Positions 46,119 through 54,834 are shown, counted from the stretch's first letter. The stretch is 64,000 bases of DNA from Hyaloraphidium curvatum (GCA_025558095.1 JAIVFI010000006.1:372001-436000); one strand, 5' to 3'. Numbers and translations are program-made. Notes: a model not told the origin generated them from the letters alone.

Positions 46119-46312
46119 ATTTGCGGGGAAGAAAACGGTGTCCACGGGATTTCTTGCAGTCGACCCTGCACACACTCGTTTCACACACAGGTCCCGCTAC
46201 TCGAGCTTGCCGGAGTCGCCGCGTGCGAATTTGCAACCGCTAGAGCACAGTCTCCATCGCAAAAGGCGCGTGGTGCCTCCTGCGTCGCGTCGGGGAACGG
46301 CACGGCCAAAAC

Positions 46313-49300
46313 ATGCTTCTGAGCGGGCCAGAAACCGCGGTTCGGCTCAAGCAGACCGGCAAGCTTGGCCCGGACGAGATTGCTGCTGTACTCGCAATTC
46401 ACCGAACGACGTATTTCCGTTGGATCCGCCGATGTGGGGCTCAGACCGTTCCGGACCATCCCCGCAAGGCCTTCCGCAAGGTGTCCGAGGAAATGGTCCG
46501 GCACGTAGTTGACGAGGCCAAAGCTCGCGTCCGCGTGACGCAAAGGGAGCTCGCTGCTGACCTGGCGGAAAAGTTTGGCGTTTTGGTGTCGCAGCAGCAT
46601 ATCTCGCGGCTGCTGAAGGCCAACAGGGTCACGAGGAAGAAGCTCACCATTAAGAGCGCCGAAGCCCTGAAACAACCCGAGCGGCACCGCATGTTCCACG
46701 AGAGGGTCACTTCCTTTGATGTGGGGCGCCTAGGTGCCTTGGACGAGTCCTCATTCCAACTCAACGATCCGGGGCGCTTCGGCTACTCGGAGAAGGGGAC
46801 TCCCGCCGTCGTATACCTGCCAGGGAACCGGGGCCCCAAGGTGACCCTTTGCCTCGCCATCTCACCCACTCCGCGACCCGGTAATCACACTGGAAACGTG
46901 ATCTCGTACCAGATCTACAGCGGCAACATGAACACCGAGAGGTTCTGTGCTTTTCTCAAGACTATTCGCGCCGGGGCTTGTGGGTCCGAGTCCCTGGGCG
47001 TTATCCTGGACAATGCGGGTTTCCACGGCTCTCCTCTGCGGGCAAGGAAGACCACGGACGGCACGGCAATAATAAAGAACCTCTCAGGCAAGTCGTTCCT
47101 TGCGGTCCAGGCCGTAGCAAAGGCCAACAATCTGAGCCTCATCTACCTGCGACCGAGATCGCCGGAATTTAACCCGACCGAGTACGTGTTTGCCACGATC
47201 AAGAACCTCGTGAGGCGGGACTGCCCCAGGACGGTGCCGGATCTCGTCCGGTCCATCGAGAGGGCCATTCAAATCGTCGGCCACGGCGATCTGATGGCGA
47301 CGTTCCGGCACTGCTTGAAGCTAAGCGAGGCTGAGTTTGTGCGCATCGCGGAATCCGCGTCCGCCGGCAAATGTGTGGCGCGGAAGGTCACACTACAAGG
47401 TCAGATCTCTGCCTTTGCTTCTCCGGCTCCTCAGACGTGCCCTTCCGCGATGGAGGGCGCAGCAGCGACCCAGACCGAAGCAAACGCGGCCGAGCGGCTC
47501 GCTGAAGAGGTGGACTGCCATGACGGTTGCGCATCGGGCATGCAGACCGCGCTGACTCACGACAACGCCCACTCCGAGCAGGCTCGCAACCTCGGCGTCG
47601 CCCACATCAACCCGCACCAAAAGCACACTTTGCTGATCCTGAGGGAAGTTCTCCACGTCGATGGTTCGGCGAGGGAATTCTTTGGGCCGTGGAACGACTT
47701 CACGGACTCCGCTCAAAGGACCGCGGGCTTCGACGCTGCGGACGTCCTCGGGGGCCTCTCCAACCTCGGTGAAGCTCCTTTCGAGTTCATCTGTCAGCGG
47801 GTGGCATCGGGTCGGGGGTACAAGCTGGAGCGCGAGCTTTTCGTCGCGCGCCTCCGGAACATCGTCGCCCGGCGGCGCCGGGTCGCCCCCAGTCTGATCG
47901 GACCAGACGCACCGGCACCCCCCTTTTTCCGCCCCGCGGACGATGGCGCGGATCTGGGACCGCCGTCAGCCCCCGACGTCTCCATCTCCCAGCTGGATAA
48001 CCTCGCCCGCTATGCCGACGTCCCACCGGAACTTAACGTCTCGTTCAAGAAAGCCAGCCGCGCCGCGTTGAAACAGCTGTTTCCGCTCTCAGCCCTTGCA
48101 AACGACACCGTGCTGGACGAGAGGTTCGCCATCCTCCTATCGGGCCTTGTACGAAACGGTCGTGGACCAGAATGGCTACGTGCGCTCGCTGTTTCTCTCT
48201 GGGGACAGCTCGGCCCGGCCGGGAGGGCACGCATGGACAGCTTCGAAACATCCGAGACAGCACGTCGTGCTCTGCATTATGTTCACCAGCCCATTTCGAA
48301 GGTCTGTCGGTTGGAGTACCTCGAACGCGCGGCTTCGACCGAGTCTCTGCCAAGGAACCTTAGGCAGATACTGGAGGAAGCGTGCCGCACGCTGAAGGAC
48401 CAGCAGGGCCGCTCGCTTTTTGATGCGTCGCCCGGCCTGGAGTACTTCCTTGCTTCGCTCTCCCTCCCGCAGCGATGCAAGATAGTCATGGCGGCGCGTT
48501 TGCCGGATAGTGTGGCGAGTCGCAATGCGGAAGGGCGCAAGAGATTCTTCGATTGGGCGGTGTGGAACCCGATGGCGGCCAACGAGGAGGCCCTCGCCAT
48601 CGAGAATCCGGGTTCCGTTCCCGTGCTGGTGTGCAATCTCCTGTCGAGCAGCCCCGCAATCCCAAACTGATTTTTGCCCCGGCAGCTGCTTTCGTTCCCG
48701 GGCCTTTTCCAGATGAGCCCGGGCGTACCTGGACTGGATGCAGAGGGCGATAAGCTGCTGGCAACCCTGTTCCTGAAGGCGGAGCAGCTCGGGTGGGAAC
48801 ACTCTTCCATGGTGACGCTGCGGCTGCTGGAGTCGAGGCCCAAGATGCGCGATTTTACCCTGGACTTGTGCGGTATGCCCGCGCTGGTGCGCGGTAGCAA
48901 CCCCGAAGCACGGCAGGAGGCCGCGCGCACCGCGCTCGACGCCAAGCTCCACTTCCACGCGGAATCCGTTGGACTGCTGGACTTCGGCCGTATCCAGAAG
49001 CGGGATTGTCCGCTCTGTTCCTTCAGTGTGCAGGTGGAAGGCGAAGTCCCGGCGAAGGCTGGGCGGCGGCGCAAGGTCGCGGCGTCGGGGATGGTGGCTG
49101 ACGGAGCTGCGCGGGAGCGTGTCTATGACGCCGAGCTTCGGCTCCTCCACCACGTCAAGGGTGCGCACCTCACCTGCAGAGCGTGCCCGGGGAAGGGACA
49201 TCAGTTCGACCTCGAGAGTGAGTTCCGGCAGCATGTCGAGGAGAACCACCGTGGGGCGTGAGTTGCACCGCGCTTTCCATGCATGCCTGGGACCGATGCG

Positions 49301-52300
49301 AAGCTGACCGCCGCCGGGGACAGTTTGGTCGCCCCAAGGAATCTCACCACGTCGTTCGGCCAGTTCATTGCCAACGCACACTACATTGTCCCGTTCGCGT
49401 CGACAAACCTCAAAGCCAACATTCCTACGGGCCTCGGCGGCTCGTCCTGCCCTTTCTGTTTCGCCGGTGGCGGGAGGCACCGGCAGGAGTGCTCTCCGAA
49501 GCGGCGGTGGGTCGCGCTCAACGGCTTCCTCGCACTTGGCGACCCCCAGCACGAGCGATACAAGACGATGACGGAGCTGGCCGTCGAGTGGTTCCCGGCG
49601 GCCGAGGTGTGCCACCCATGGGCGCGGGGCCCGTACGAGCAAGTCGGGCCCCTCATCACCAAGGCCTGCACCCTCGCCGCCATCTTATTCAAGATCATCT
49701 GGACCAAGATCTTGTTGCAGATCCACAACAAAGAGCTCCCGGACCAAGACGGATCCGTCACGCAGGACATGCTCGCCAGCTTTCCCCCGTCTTACGTCGC
49801 AAAGATTGCCATCCACGCCGTGCTTGGTGCCGGCCAGATGTCCGCCGCTGTTGGAACCCGCCGCGCGGGAAAGCAGAAGTCGGCCGGGCTCGGTGCTGGG
49901 GCGAGATACTCGGGCCATTCGGGGGCGCCAGGAGTGGAGCAGCTTGTGGACGGCGGTCCGGACCTCGGAGCCAACGACGACGATCGAGACGAGGTGCTCG
50001 AGGACGTTGACTTCGAGGACGATGACGACGCGATGGCCGAGGACCAGGCCGGCGCCAAGATCTTGGCCGACTTCTTGCACGGCGAGCTGGATCAGATTGA
50101 GGACGAGGACTTGGTTACGGCTGAGGACACCCCCGATCTCTCGCAGGTTGCTGATCAGGGCGCACCGTCCGTTCTCACCGTCGCGGAGCACAACGCAGCG
50201 GCAAAGCTTGTCCGCAAGGCGGCCGTTGCTGCGTTTGCAGAGGCGCGGGAACTTGTGGGCGAGACGTACGACAAGCTCAGGCCGCTTTTCGTGCAGGGAC
50301 CTTTGCTCCGCTATGCCGAGCAGGTCGCTTTCAACCGAGCTCGAAGCGTGCCGCAGCGGCTGCTGACTGCGCTCAAGGTTCTCATCCGTCGCTTCCTACG
50401 CGGGGAGGTGAACGCGGGCGTCGGCCGGAGGCGGATTGGCCCGATCCTCAGCTACGCTCTGGCAAAGCTCGGATATGGGGACGACGACTTCTCCAATTTC
50501 CCGTTCGAAAGCGCATTTGGCTGTGGTCTCGCCGAGGCCACGGAGCTCAGGGTCGGGCTGGGGAGGCTCCTCCGGCCGTTCAGAGGCTTGCAGCTGAACC
50601 GGATCGTTGACCTCCGGGATTCAAAACAGAAGCCGCCGGTGCCGGCAACCGTTTCGCAGCGGAGGGTTATCGCTCGGGTCCTGCAGGACAAGCAGGCGGG
50701 CAACCCCGTGGCGGCCGCGGTGCGAACCGTGAACCTGCCGAAGGGCAAGCCGCGCGGAAAGGTCGACGCGGAAACGGAGGCGGTGCGCAGCTACCTCCAG
50801 AACATTTGGGAGACGCTGCCGCGGGCCTCACCTGCGGAGAAGGCTGACTTGCGAAAGGTGGAGCTGCAGGAGCTGAGGGACTGGGTGGTTGCAAACCGTC
50901 TACAGCTTCGGAGCATCCCCTTCCGCTACCCGGCCGTGACCACGGCAACGATTCGGTCGACAGAGCAGAAACCCAAGTTCTGGGTCCCCGAGCACGCCGA
51001 GGACATGAACGAGGCGGCGGCGGCGGCATTGGTGGGGCAGAACCGGCCCCACTGGGAAAGCGAGAAGCTTCTGGTGGCGCGGATGAGCGAGTATGACCTC
51101 GACAAGTGTCGTTCATCCACGAACCCCGCGGACGAAGCCTTCGGCTTCCAGATGTGCTTCATCGCCCTGCACGAGCTCGAAAAGCAGGACGAGGCGCTGA
51201 AGAAGAGGGCCGCGTCCGCGGCTGCTGCACTGCCGGAACCTGGAACGGCGCGGAGGACGAGCACCGCCAGGGACCCCGATTCAACCCCAACTTTCCCAAC
51301 CATTTCAACTGCTCCGGTCAAGGACAGGGAGGCTTCGAACAAGACCAGGAGGGCCCGCAACACGTGGCGGCCGCACCGCGTCGAGAAGCGGCATTACAGC
51401 AAGAATGGCTCCCCGAAGCGATGGCACGGGTTCGTCGTGAGCTTCCGTAAGCGCCGACCGCAGCCGGGGCCCGAGGGACTCGCCAAGAAGGAGACCATGG
51501 AGACGAAGCGGCGGGAGCGCAAGGCGGCCGCCGCCGCCGCGATGGCGGGGCTTGGCGCCGCCCAGACCGGCAAGGAAAAGGCAGCCTCGTGGGCGCGGCG
51601 GAAGCTTCGGGCTGCGGTCGCCGAAATCAGCTTGTCCCCCGTGACCGTCTACATCTCGGCCTCGGATCTGCCCGAGTTTTTGTCCAAGCTGGGCGTGGAG
51701 GTCGCGCCTGGCATCGACACCTCGCGCGTTGACTCGGACTACCTATTCGGCCACCTGCTCAACGGCGGCAACCAACTCGTCAACGAGGACCGGCTCTTCC
51801 GCCTCCGTCAGCAGGGCAAAGTCTCGGCCAGGGGCCATGCCGCCGCCACGCAGCCCATCTATCGTCGCACCGCGGACGTTCTGAGGTACTCCGGCGTCCG
51901 GGGCATCTATCATTGCGGCAGCACCCTGGGCATTCTTAACGAAGAAGTCTCCTTCGTGGAAAAGGTCTCGTTCCAGCAGTCGCAGCAGCAGGAGCGGCAA
52001 AACACGACACAGGACGTCGAGCCGCCAAAGCGCGCAGCGCATTCGCCAGCAGCCGCGCCGGCTCCTCCTGTTCAAACTCGGCCCACCGTCTCCGTTCCCG
52101 CCGCAGCTCATGTGCCCGCCGGTCTTGCTGCTTTCGAAGTGGATGTTTCGTTCCCTCGCGATGTTCCGATGGATCCCTACCCGCCGCTCTACACCGGTCC
52201 ATGGCTGCCAAACGGCGATCCGGACCCGCCGTGCGACATGGCTGTCTTCGATGGTGGGCATTTTGCTCAGTGACGCACGGGTTCGGAGGCTGATCGGATC

Positions 52301-54685
52301 CTCACTTTTCCAGGCCAGAATCGGATTTGGCATGGGGGCATGGTCTACTACCTGCAGGCGACGGCCCAAGGGGACGAATCGGTCCCGATGGATTGGGAGC
52401 CCTCTTATTGTGCCAGCAGCAACCTTAACTTCACCACCATGCCTTCCGAGCCTCCGGCGGACTGCGGCATCCCCGCCGCGGTCCCGCCGGAACCCCCGCC
52501 CTTTTTCTCCTTCGTCGAACCACCAGCCTCGACTTCTCTCCCTGCCTCCATTCCCCCGGAACCGCCCCCGCATTGGGTGCACGACCCGTGCTCGTGCTGT
52601 CAAGATGCCGCCTGCAAGGCCGTGGACTGTGCGCCCAACGTGTTCGCGCCCCTGAGCTCGGGGCACAACGACCCTCCCTGCGCGACTGTCTCGCCCGGTG
52701 ACTCGGTGCCCGAGACTTCTGTGCATCCATGCGCGGCCCTTCCTTTCCCCGACTTCTCGCCGCCACTTCCTTCCCCCTTCCTTTCTTGCTTCCCTCCCGA
52801 AGTCGTCGTTTGCGCGGTCGAACCGTCGCCGCCGACGGTAACGGTCGAGGGCAAGTTCGCTGCCCCCGTACCTCCTCAGCTGGCCCCGACCCCGGTTCCG
52901 CTCCCGCCGCGTTCTGCCGAGCCGTTGCCGCGGCCCCCGGTCGACTTCAAGACTGGCATTCCCGTCTACTACCTCAGCCGCCCTGACCATGTGTCCGTGC
53001 TGGCACCCAATCTCCTGCACATGCCGACGCAGGCGGAAATGTTCGAGCGGGCCGAGCGCGGCGAGCCAGTGGAGGGCTGGGTCGTCGACGTGGATCCGAA
53101 TCGCTGGTTTCTGGCTGTTGCCAACCGCCGCGTCGACGTGCGGCTCGTTGCCAAGAGCCTGAACCCCGGGCCGAACGGACGCTACGACTTCGCCAACAGT
53201 CATCTGCCGGGGACAACGGAGCGCATCACCGTGACCAATGCCGACGGCACCAAGTCGCACTACGTGCCGAAGCGGGCGAACCCGTCCAAGGCCGACGGTT
53301 CCGTCAGCTTCGGGAGGATCGTCGGCTTCCACCTAGAGCACTCCTGCTCCGATACTAAGCGGATCGCAAGGTCTTTCGGTCCGTCGCCGCCTGCCGCTGG
53401 AGCGTGCAGACACCACCCGCTCTGGGAGCCCAAGATCTCGGAGTTCAAGCCGCCGGCGCCCGATTCGCGCCCCAACGACGCTGCAAAGGCGGAGAAGCAC
53501 GCTCGGCGCAACGTCGAACTGTTCCCGACCCCTGGCGGCTGCACGGACGAGTTTGGTGCCAAGCTGTGGGGCGAGGTCGCTGGTGCCGGCCGTGCGGGGA
53601 CCCCGGCGCTGCCGGAGCTCATCCTCGGTGTTCCGGCCAAGCTCGACCGCCGCCTGTGCGGCTACGACAAGGCGGCCGCGCGTCTGAATGCCACCAAGCG
53701 GACCACCATGCTGGACGTCAACGATTGCGAGGGCAACCCTGTGCAGAAGTCTCTCCACGATTTCGAGCGCGACCTGCCCTCTCAACGCACAACGAACAGT
53801 GCAGCCTTCTCGGACTACACGAGGGCGCTGCTGCCACAACTCGACCGCATCCTGGACGTCTACTGTTCCGGAGAACGGAGGTGGGCAAGCCAATCCCTGT
53901 GGCAACGACTTCGCTCACGCATCCTGCAGCCTGGATCGTGTGCGCACGATTCGCCGGCGCCGCGAGGTCCTCAGCTGGATCTGTCGCGACATGTGTCGCA
54001 ACCCGTATTCGGGCAAGTACGATCCACAGACGACCATCGCATACGGCGCCGCGCGATTCGGCCATGCGAGCAAGGGCGGCCCGGCCTCCCGGATCGTTCG
54101 CTTCAGGGCGGAGCTGGCCAAGGCCGGGATCATGGTCTTGGTCAACGAGTACCTCACGTCCCAAATGTGCAGCTGGTGCGGCAGCCGCCGTGATCATCCG
54201 ACTCGCCTGACGTCCTTTCCAGCTGCAAGACCACCTATGTCGTCGGAATCCGGAACCCCGGCTCCAAGGGCGAGGTGCGCGGGGTGAAATACTGTCCCCT
54301 CTGCCGCCGCTTCTGGATGCGCGACGTGAACAGTGTGCACTCCATGGAGCACCTCTTCTGGTTCGGCCTCATCACCGGAGGGGAGCGCCCCTGGCCGTTC
54401 AGGCCGGACACCAGGAAGCCGAAGCCGCAGCCCAAGCTCCGAGCTGGGACTGGTGCAGCGCCGCGCAAGTCCGCGGGTGAGCGCGCTCGCATTCGCGACG
54501 GTCATCCCGAGCGTCATCCCGAGCTGATCCGGGAGCTCCAGGTGCCGCCACAGGCCGCAAGCGTACGGCCGCAAGCGCCGCGAATGGGTCGGTCAAGAAG
54601 CTCAAGCCGGCAAGCTGACCTGGCCGCGGAAACAGTTACAAGTTGGCGTGCCATGCACCGCGTGGGCGCCATTGCATTTGCTTGA
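46313..54685 (+). CDS. Fusion of IS630/Tc1-type DDE transposase with a Fanzor (TnpB-like) RNA-guided nuclease
   Basis: Six exons splice into one 2697-residue frame: 46313-48628, 48686-49257, 49324-52253, 52314-53880, 53930-54175 and 54223-54685. Introns are 57, 66, 60, 49 and 47 nt, all GT...AG with matching phases. Residues 1-345 form a transposase: helix-turn-helix (IAAVLAIHRTTYFRWIRR), then catalytic D144 (GALDESSFQ), D233 (VILDNAGFHGS) and E290 (RSPEFNPTEYVFATIKN). The middle is unrecognised but has Cys/His pairs (CPLC...CRAC...H) near residues 870-960 and a Pro-rich linker. The C-terminus is Fanzor-like: RuvC-I D2200 (GWVVDVDPNRWFLAVA), TIAYGAARFGHASKGG, the relocated glutamate E2535 in LVNEYLTSQMC, a CxxC...CPLC zinc finger, and RuvC-III D2578 (MRDVNSV). 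Whether one polypeptide is made, or two from separate transcripts, is untested. Confidence 0.8.
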
Positions 54686-54742
54686 TCGAGGTGGAGTCCG
54701 TCAGGGACCGCCTTTTATTCGCAGGCTCGATGATGAACATTG

Positions 54743-54786
54743 CTGCTAGGCCGCAAAGGATTGCGGCACAGTGGGCACAGTAGCAG
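54743..54786 (+). ncRNA. Candidate Fanzor guide-RNA scaffold hairpin
   Basis: 58 bp after the Fanzor stop codon lies a nested inverted repeat: outer arms CTGCTA (54743-54748) and TAGCAG (54781-54786), and a perfect inner hairpin CCGCAA-AGGA-TTGCGG (54751-54766). Fanzor and TnpB guide RNAs are normally encoded at the 3' end of the nuclease gene and extend to the element end. The position fits, but short hairpins arise by chance in GC-rich DNA and no expression evidence is available. Confidence 0.25.
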
Positions 54787-54834
54787 TTTCTGAGAGTGTA
54801 GCTAACAGCAGCCTCGTGAGCAACATTCGACGCG

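Follow-up and report, generated by a model that had tools for sequence, protein, structure and literature searches.

In the bacterial IS200/IS605 and IS607 families, TnpA and TnpB are encoded by separate genes, and the transposases are HUH enzymes or serine recombinases. For Fanzors, coupling to a transposase has so far been argued mainly from co-occurrence. Fanzor1-carrying Mariner/Tc1 elements are exemplified by PGv-1 and PUl-1, for which transposase and Fanzor were described as separate proteins (Bao and Jurka, 2013; PMC3627910), and the word "fused" is absent from the text of that report. Other papers on Fanzors report co-occurrence of transposase and Fanzor only (PMC10711439; PMC10432273; PMC11423790), and our literature text searches, of incomplete coverage, found no transposase-Fanzor fusion. 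A locus in which the two are joined would bear on why eukaryotic transposons carry RNA-guided nucleases.

In this work, we analyzed a window of 64,000 nucleotides from Hyaloraphidium curvatum (GCA_025558095.1, JAIVFI010000006.1:372001-436000; positions are counted from its first nucleotide) and found an 8,625-bp element on the plus strand (46178-54802) with a single predicted gene of six exons and five introns that encodes 2,697 aa. A first-pass annotation had proposed that the transposase frame stays open for more than 400 codons after the catalytic domain and is then spliced in phase through five introns to a Fanzor end, and both proposals were borne out. Read from the ATG at 46313, the frame meets an internal TGA only at 48668, 49259, 52271, and 54191 (in introns 1, 2, 3, and 5, respectively) before the final TGA at 54683. 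Every internal stop sits within a GT-AG intron, and the spliced product of 2,697 residues is free of stops. The exon-1 frame is open to codon 785 from the ATG, more than 420 codons beyond the transposase domain, and spans 808 codons from stop to stop. Over 2,791 codons the main frame contains five stops, compared with 39-65 in four of the remaining frames and 24 in the fifth, which is antisense.

The genome (32 Mb in 55 contigs) contains 10 near-identical copies of this element, hereafter family A, with both halves at constant spacing. No light-harvesting proteins turned up in this genome, so that a photosynthetic host is improbable. A diverged family B has five copies; its transposase is 65% identical to that of A, with synonymous sites at or near saturation. 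The family B protein (2,623 aa) is collinear with that of A over its whole length, beginning at residue 1 and extending to the C-terminus of the Fanzor part. The B exons were called from the open frames and splice sites of B itself, and comparison with A was used to choose between alternative sites.

All exons and introns of the window copy lie on the plus strand. Exon 1 (46313-48628) encodes a helix-turn-helix (HTH) and DDE transposase (residues 1-345), a variable linker (346-421), and a conserved middle part (422-772); transposase and middle region thus share one uninterrupted exon, as they do in B. Intron 1 (48629-48685; 57 nt, phase 0) has a 59-nt counterpart in B. Exon 2 (48686-49257) encodes two zinc-finger-like Cys-x2-Cys pairs and shares 37% identity with B across 184 codons. 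It starts with LLSFPGLFQ in A and PLTFYEIFQ in B and has no conserved ATG there, so it must join exon 1. Intron 2 (49258-49323; 66 nt, phase 2) has the same phase in B and is offset by approximately three residues where the alignment is gapped. Exon 3 (49324-52253; approximately 976 residues) is collinear with B at 34-37% identity; it has an acidic stretch near residue 1200, a basic stretch near residue 1650, and no Pfam match to a known domain. Intron 3 (52254-52313) is 60 nt long and in phase 1. Exon 4 (52314-53880) encodes a proline-rich linker and then the start of the Fanzor domain with the RuvC-I motif DPNRWF (D2200); from residue 2149 it is 46% identical to B, and it is conserved in two decayed relatives, C1 and C2, described below. 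Intron 4 (53881-53929; 49 nt, phase 2) is required for a change of frame. Exon 5 (53930-54175) encodes the RuvC core, the motif NEYLTSQMC with the alternative glutamate (E2535), and the first half of the zinc ribbon. Intron 5 (54176-54222; 47 nt, phase 2) also shifts the frame and splits the ribbon, which therefore exists only after splicing, and exon 6 (54223-54685) supplies the second half of the ribbon, the RuvC-III motif RDVNS (D2578), and the stop, with 61% identity to B over residues 2544-2630. Introns 1, 3, 4, and 5 match B introns in place and phase, and B has two additional introns. Translation of TGA as an amino acid was rejected because some of the corresponding B introns have lengths not divisible by three.

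Several measures point to constraint along the whole frame. Between A and B, Ka was lower than Ks in every segment (Ka of 0.14-0.75, except for 0.98 in the short linker), and codon positions 1 and 2 were better conserved than position 3 throughout. The middle part at residues 422-772 is 37% identical between the families. Comparison with relatives, which the first-pass annotation had suggested as a check, recovered the same architecture intact and collinear from end to end in the diverged family B and in decayed form in C1 (locus L044, contig C2:426400-436399) and C2 (locus L045, contig C2:396900-406899). Both of the latter lie on the same contig and keep the order of transposase, long middle, and Fanzor, with broken transposase frames. 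These comparisons confirmed that the transposase-Fanzor frame is real as a predicted coding sequence, and they support one gene, and by inference one protein, that carries both a DDE transposase and a Fanzor-type nuclease domain.

At the DNA level, identity between C1 and C2 is 92% within the transposase domain and approximately 66-70% in the few other alignable stretches. Since the high identity is confined to the transposase domain, module exchange seems likely, which suggests that the transposase module was swapped between these two Fanzor-bearing elements. The middle of C2 contains a minus-strand open reading frame (L045, 2413-6534; 1,374 aa) with a weak match to OTU cysteine proteases (E-value of 0.03, below the cut-off). 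Three further loci (L041, L042, and L048) encode distant IS630-like transposases in an open frame of 822 aa, with a different C-terminal extension of approximately 460 extra residues that is unrelated to the middle region of A. No Fanzor was found near them in the stretch analyzed, and their extension may represent a fused cargo.

The transposase part matches Pfam DDE_3 (PF13358) at residues 143-302 (5.8e-15, above the cut-off), with an HTH_32 match upstream, and its predicted catalytic residues D144, D233, and E290 are conserved in B. The middle region comprises approximately 1,800 residues in which no recognized domain was found, and it was not found on its own in this genome. At the other end, the last 500 residues contain DPNRWF, NEYLTSQMC, a C4 ribbon, and RDVNS. 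The spliced ribbon of A scored 26.3 bits against PF07282 (OrfB_Zn_ribbon, the TnpB/Cas12f ribbon), equal to the cut-off of 26.3, and that of C2 scored 32.1. By the ribbon criterion for Fanzors, [TS][TS]xx precedes a C4 ribbon and RD follows 5-50 residues after it; here, the order is TSQM, C4, five residues, and RD. The alternative glutamate E2535 within NEYLTSQMC is invariant in A, B, and C2. All Fanzor genes found in the genome (17 of 17) are preceded by a transposase of this type. Collections of viral and prokaryotic contigs, phage records, and PDB sequences yielded no relative of the fusion; a profile built from the Fanzor end matched nothing beyond the ribbon of the TnpB/Cas12-like nuclease LaTranC. 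Single-sequence AlphaFold models were too poor for use (mean pLDDT of 40 and 36).

The limits of the element were set by alignment of the copies, in which identity ends at 46178 and 54802. Both ends are present in nine of the 10 A copies, which start with GTTTCACACACAGG, end with GAGAGTGTAGC, and have unrelated flanks, whereas the left end is missing from the tenth. The terminal inverted repeats (GTTTCACACACAGG... and ...CTGAGAGTGTAGC) are imperfect and short in families A and B alike, extending over approximately 13 positions. The window copy is inserted between genes identified by Pfam as eIF3h (minus strand) and a SET-domain gene (plus strand), with TC on its left (46176-46177) and TA on its right (54803-54804). 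The right junction is TA in all nine complete A copies. At the left, T occupies position -2 in all nine, and the dinucleotide reads TA in three and TC in six; the family B junctions read NA (left) and CA (right). A clean TA target duplication is not apparent. The base adjoining the left end of A copies appears to be inherited with the element, with TA in one subclade and TC in the others.

In the parts compared, the A copies differ by a handful of changes, almost only base substitutions. A stop at residue 2265 interrupts one copy, one deviates at the start of exon 3, and the 3' part of the copy at C7:469-477 kb failed to align with the others owing to a length difference. The exon-1 frame is open in all 10 A and all five B copies; the integrity of the remaining copies of both families was judged by exon-wise matches and partial loci. 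Two A copies (L007 and L008) carry distinct small deletions immediately internal to the left end and otherwise look complete. The window copy alone has R823 (48836) and W2195 (53078), where the other copies compared have G, as does family B at the W2195 site; because of these two residues, the window copy may be slightly impaired. Genome-wide queries with the left-end and right-end sequences matched only the known copies and found no short derivatives. This lack of short copies would fit, as a weak hint, a protein that prefers its own encoding element.

A conserved noncoding block (54680-54715, plus strand; GCTTGATCGAGGTGGAGTCCG..AGGGACCGCCTTTT) starts at the stop codon and can form a GC-rich hairpin. 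The block GCTTGATCGAGGTGGAGTCCG..AGG(G)ACCGCCTTTT is almost identical between A and B despite the saturation of their coding DNA, and its pattern has exactly 15 matches in the genome, one per A or B element, with none for the reversed control. Folding of the right end was no more stable than that of shuffled sequences, and Rfam has no family that matches there. The block is a candidate omegaRNA scaffold of a guide RNA and could instead be a transposase or transcription signal.

The main rival to a single fusion protein is a second start in the linker. An internal promoter or start codon there (e.g., the ATG at residue 380) would give a separate protein consisting of the middle region and Fanzor, and the transposase would come from a shorter or differently ended transcript. 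The linker at residues 346-421 is indeed short and poorly conserved (25% identity between A and B), and a search for starts after residue 345, as recommended by the first-pass annotation, located one ATG within it in each family; separate proteins are also what has been reported for Fanzors of known Mariner elements (PMC3627910). However, the linker ATGs of A and B do not align, and exons 2-6 have no conserved start codon. Moreover, in neither family is the transposase frame closed by its own stop codon, and the probability of an open linker by chance is 0.14 in A and 0.12 in B, with a further factor of one third each for being in frame. We consider this two-product arrangement quite unlikely. 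An equally improbable variant is a true polyprotein that is cleaved post-translationally into transposase and Fanzor. A product of 2,697 aa is very long, and a second weakly conserved or low-complexity linker (residues 1,940-2,148) adds to that at 346-421, but Pfam shows no protease domain in any exon. An NPGP in the Fanzor part was rejected as a 2A peptide, as it lacks the 2A context and reads DPGP in B. With no protease or cleavage signal seen, the initial label of polyprotein was dropped in favor of fusion protein, which fits better.

The Fanzor part may also have taken on a role without cutting, such as RNA-guided DNA binding or a structural function. In A, B, C1, and C2, RuvC-I reads DPN rather than DPG, with the aspartate retained; the distance from this aspartate to the TS motif in A is 337 residues compared with the published 125-275, which is consistent with a long insertion in RuvC, and the solved structures hold no detectable homologue outside the zinc ribbon. 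Against this, A, B, and the distantly related C2 all retain D2200, E2535, D2578, and the four cysteines of the ribbon, and exon 5, at 82% identity to B, is better conserved than any other segment, such that we regard the loss of cutting as unlikely. A chance open frame or a decayed locus that joins two unrelated genes might be suspected in a GC-rich genome with long mirror frames on the other strand, but this is refuted by the whole frame with five introns being common to two diverged families, by purifying selection throughout, and by the 10 near-identical copies, among which substitutions account for nearly all differences in the stretches compared. The reading that we favor, and hold to be likely from the sequence comparisons, is that the element is an autonomous, recently mobile DNA transposon of the IS630/Tc1 type whose single predicted gene encodes a fusion protein.

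Because relatives with a separate evolutionary history conserve the joined gene, the transposase and Fanzor activities are probably physically tied together. In a possible mechanism, the transposase domain would cut and paste the element, and transcription of the right end would yield a guide RNA in which the DNA flanking the insertion provides the guide. The transposase domain would hold the Fanzor domain at the element, and the latter would cut the empty donor site, or a copy without the element; repair from the sister copy would then restore the insertion, as proposed for bacterial TnpA/TnpB. Fusion would guarantee equal amounts and co-localization of the two enzymes. Re-cutting of the donor site is inferred by analogy. 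That one covalent enzyme would do all of this, with the transposase domain holding the Fanzor at the ends, the right-end RNA loaded in place, excision and donor re-cutting by the same molecule, and net replicative movement, is a tentative proposal that falls somewhat short of even odds. The first-pass annotation had argued that a single protein would couple transposition to targeted cleavage for donor-site repair or guided insertion. The presence of both domains in one predicted gene is backed by A and B and by the decayed C1 and C2; guided insertion found no support. Among the 20-mers that flank the right ends of nine copies, the best pair was alike at 11 of 20 positions, compared with 12 for random genomic 20-mers (95th percentile, best of 36 pairs). 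The flanks are thus no more alike than random sequence in this indirect test, and since those of different copies are unrelated, the copies do not land at sites that resemble the flank of another copy.

A fusion maintained by purifying selection in two diverged, multi-copy families would provide direct evidence that transposase and nuclease functions belong together. It would also offer a single-protein system amenable to assay and a naturally occurring precedent for the fusions of transposase and nuclease that are now engineered for gene insertion. Like the bacterial IS200/IS605 and IS607 elements, this one pairs a transposase with a nuclease, here presumably RNA-guided, and has a right end that is a candidate source of guide RNA, whereas the bacterial genes are separate and their transposases are unrelated to the DDE type found here. 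The predicted Fanzor part shares RuvC and a C4 ribbon, the alternative glutamate, and a C-terminal RD-N with SpuFz1, GtFz1, and PpFz1, and extra length inside RuvC with PpFz1 (PMC10432273; PMC11423790). Most Fanzor1 nucleases have 600-700 aa (PMC10432273; PMC11423790), whereas here the Fanzor is the C-terminus of a protein with approximately four times as many residues and has DPN in place of DPG. PGv-1 and PUl-1 are alike in combining a 5' transposase of the Tc1/mariner type, a 3' Fanzor, and terminal inverted repeats in one element, and in that elements share a transposase part of approximately 1 kb and differ in the rest (PMC3627910). Those elements have TA duplications and separate proteins, whereas the element described here has a left TA that is not uniform and one spliced frame of 2,697 aa. 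Judged by these sources, the single-frame fusion is new relative to the known Fanzor-carrying Tc1/mariner-like transposons, in which transposase and Fanzor are separate proteins.
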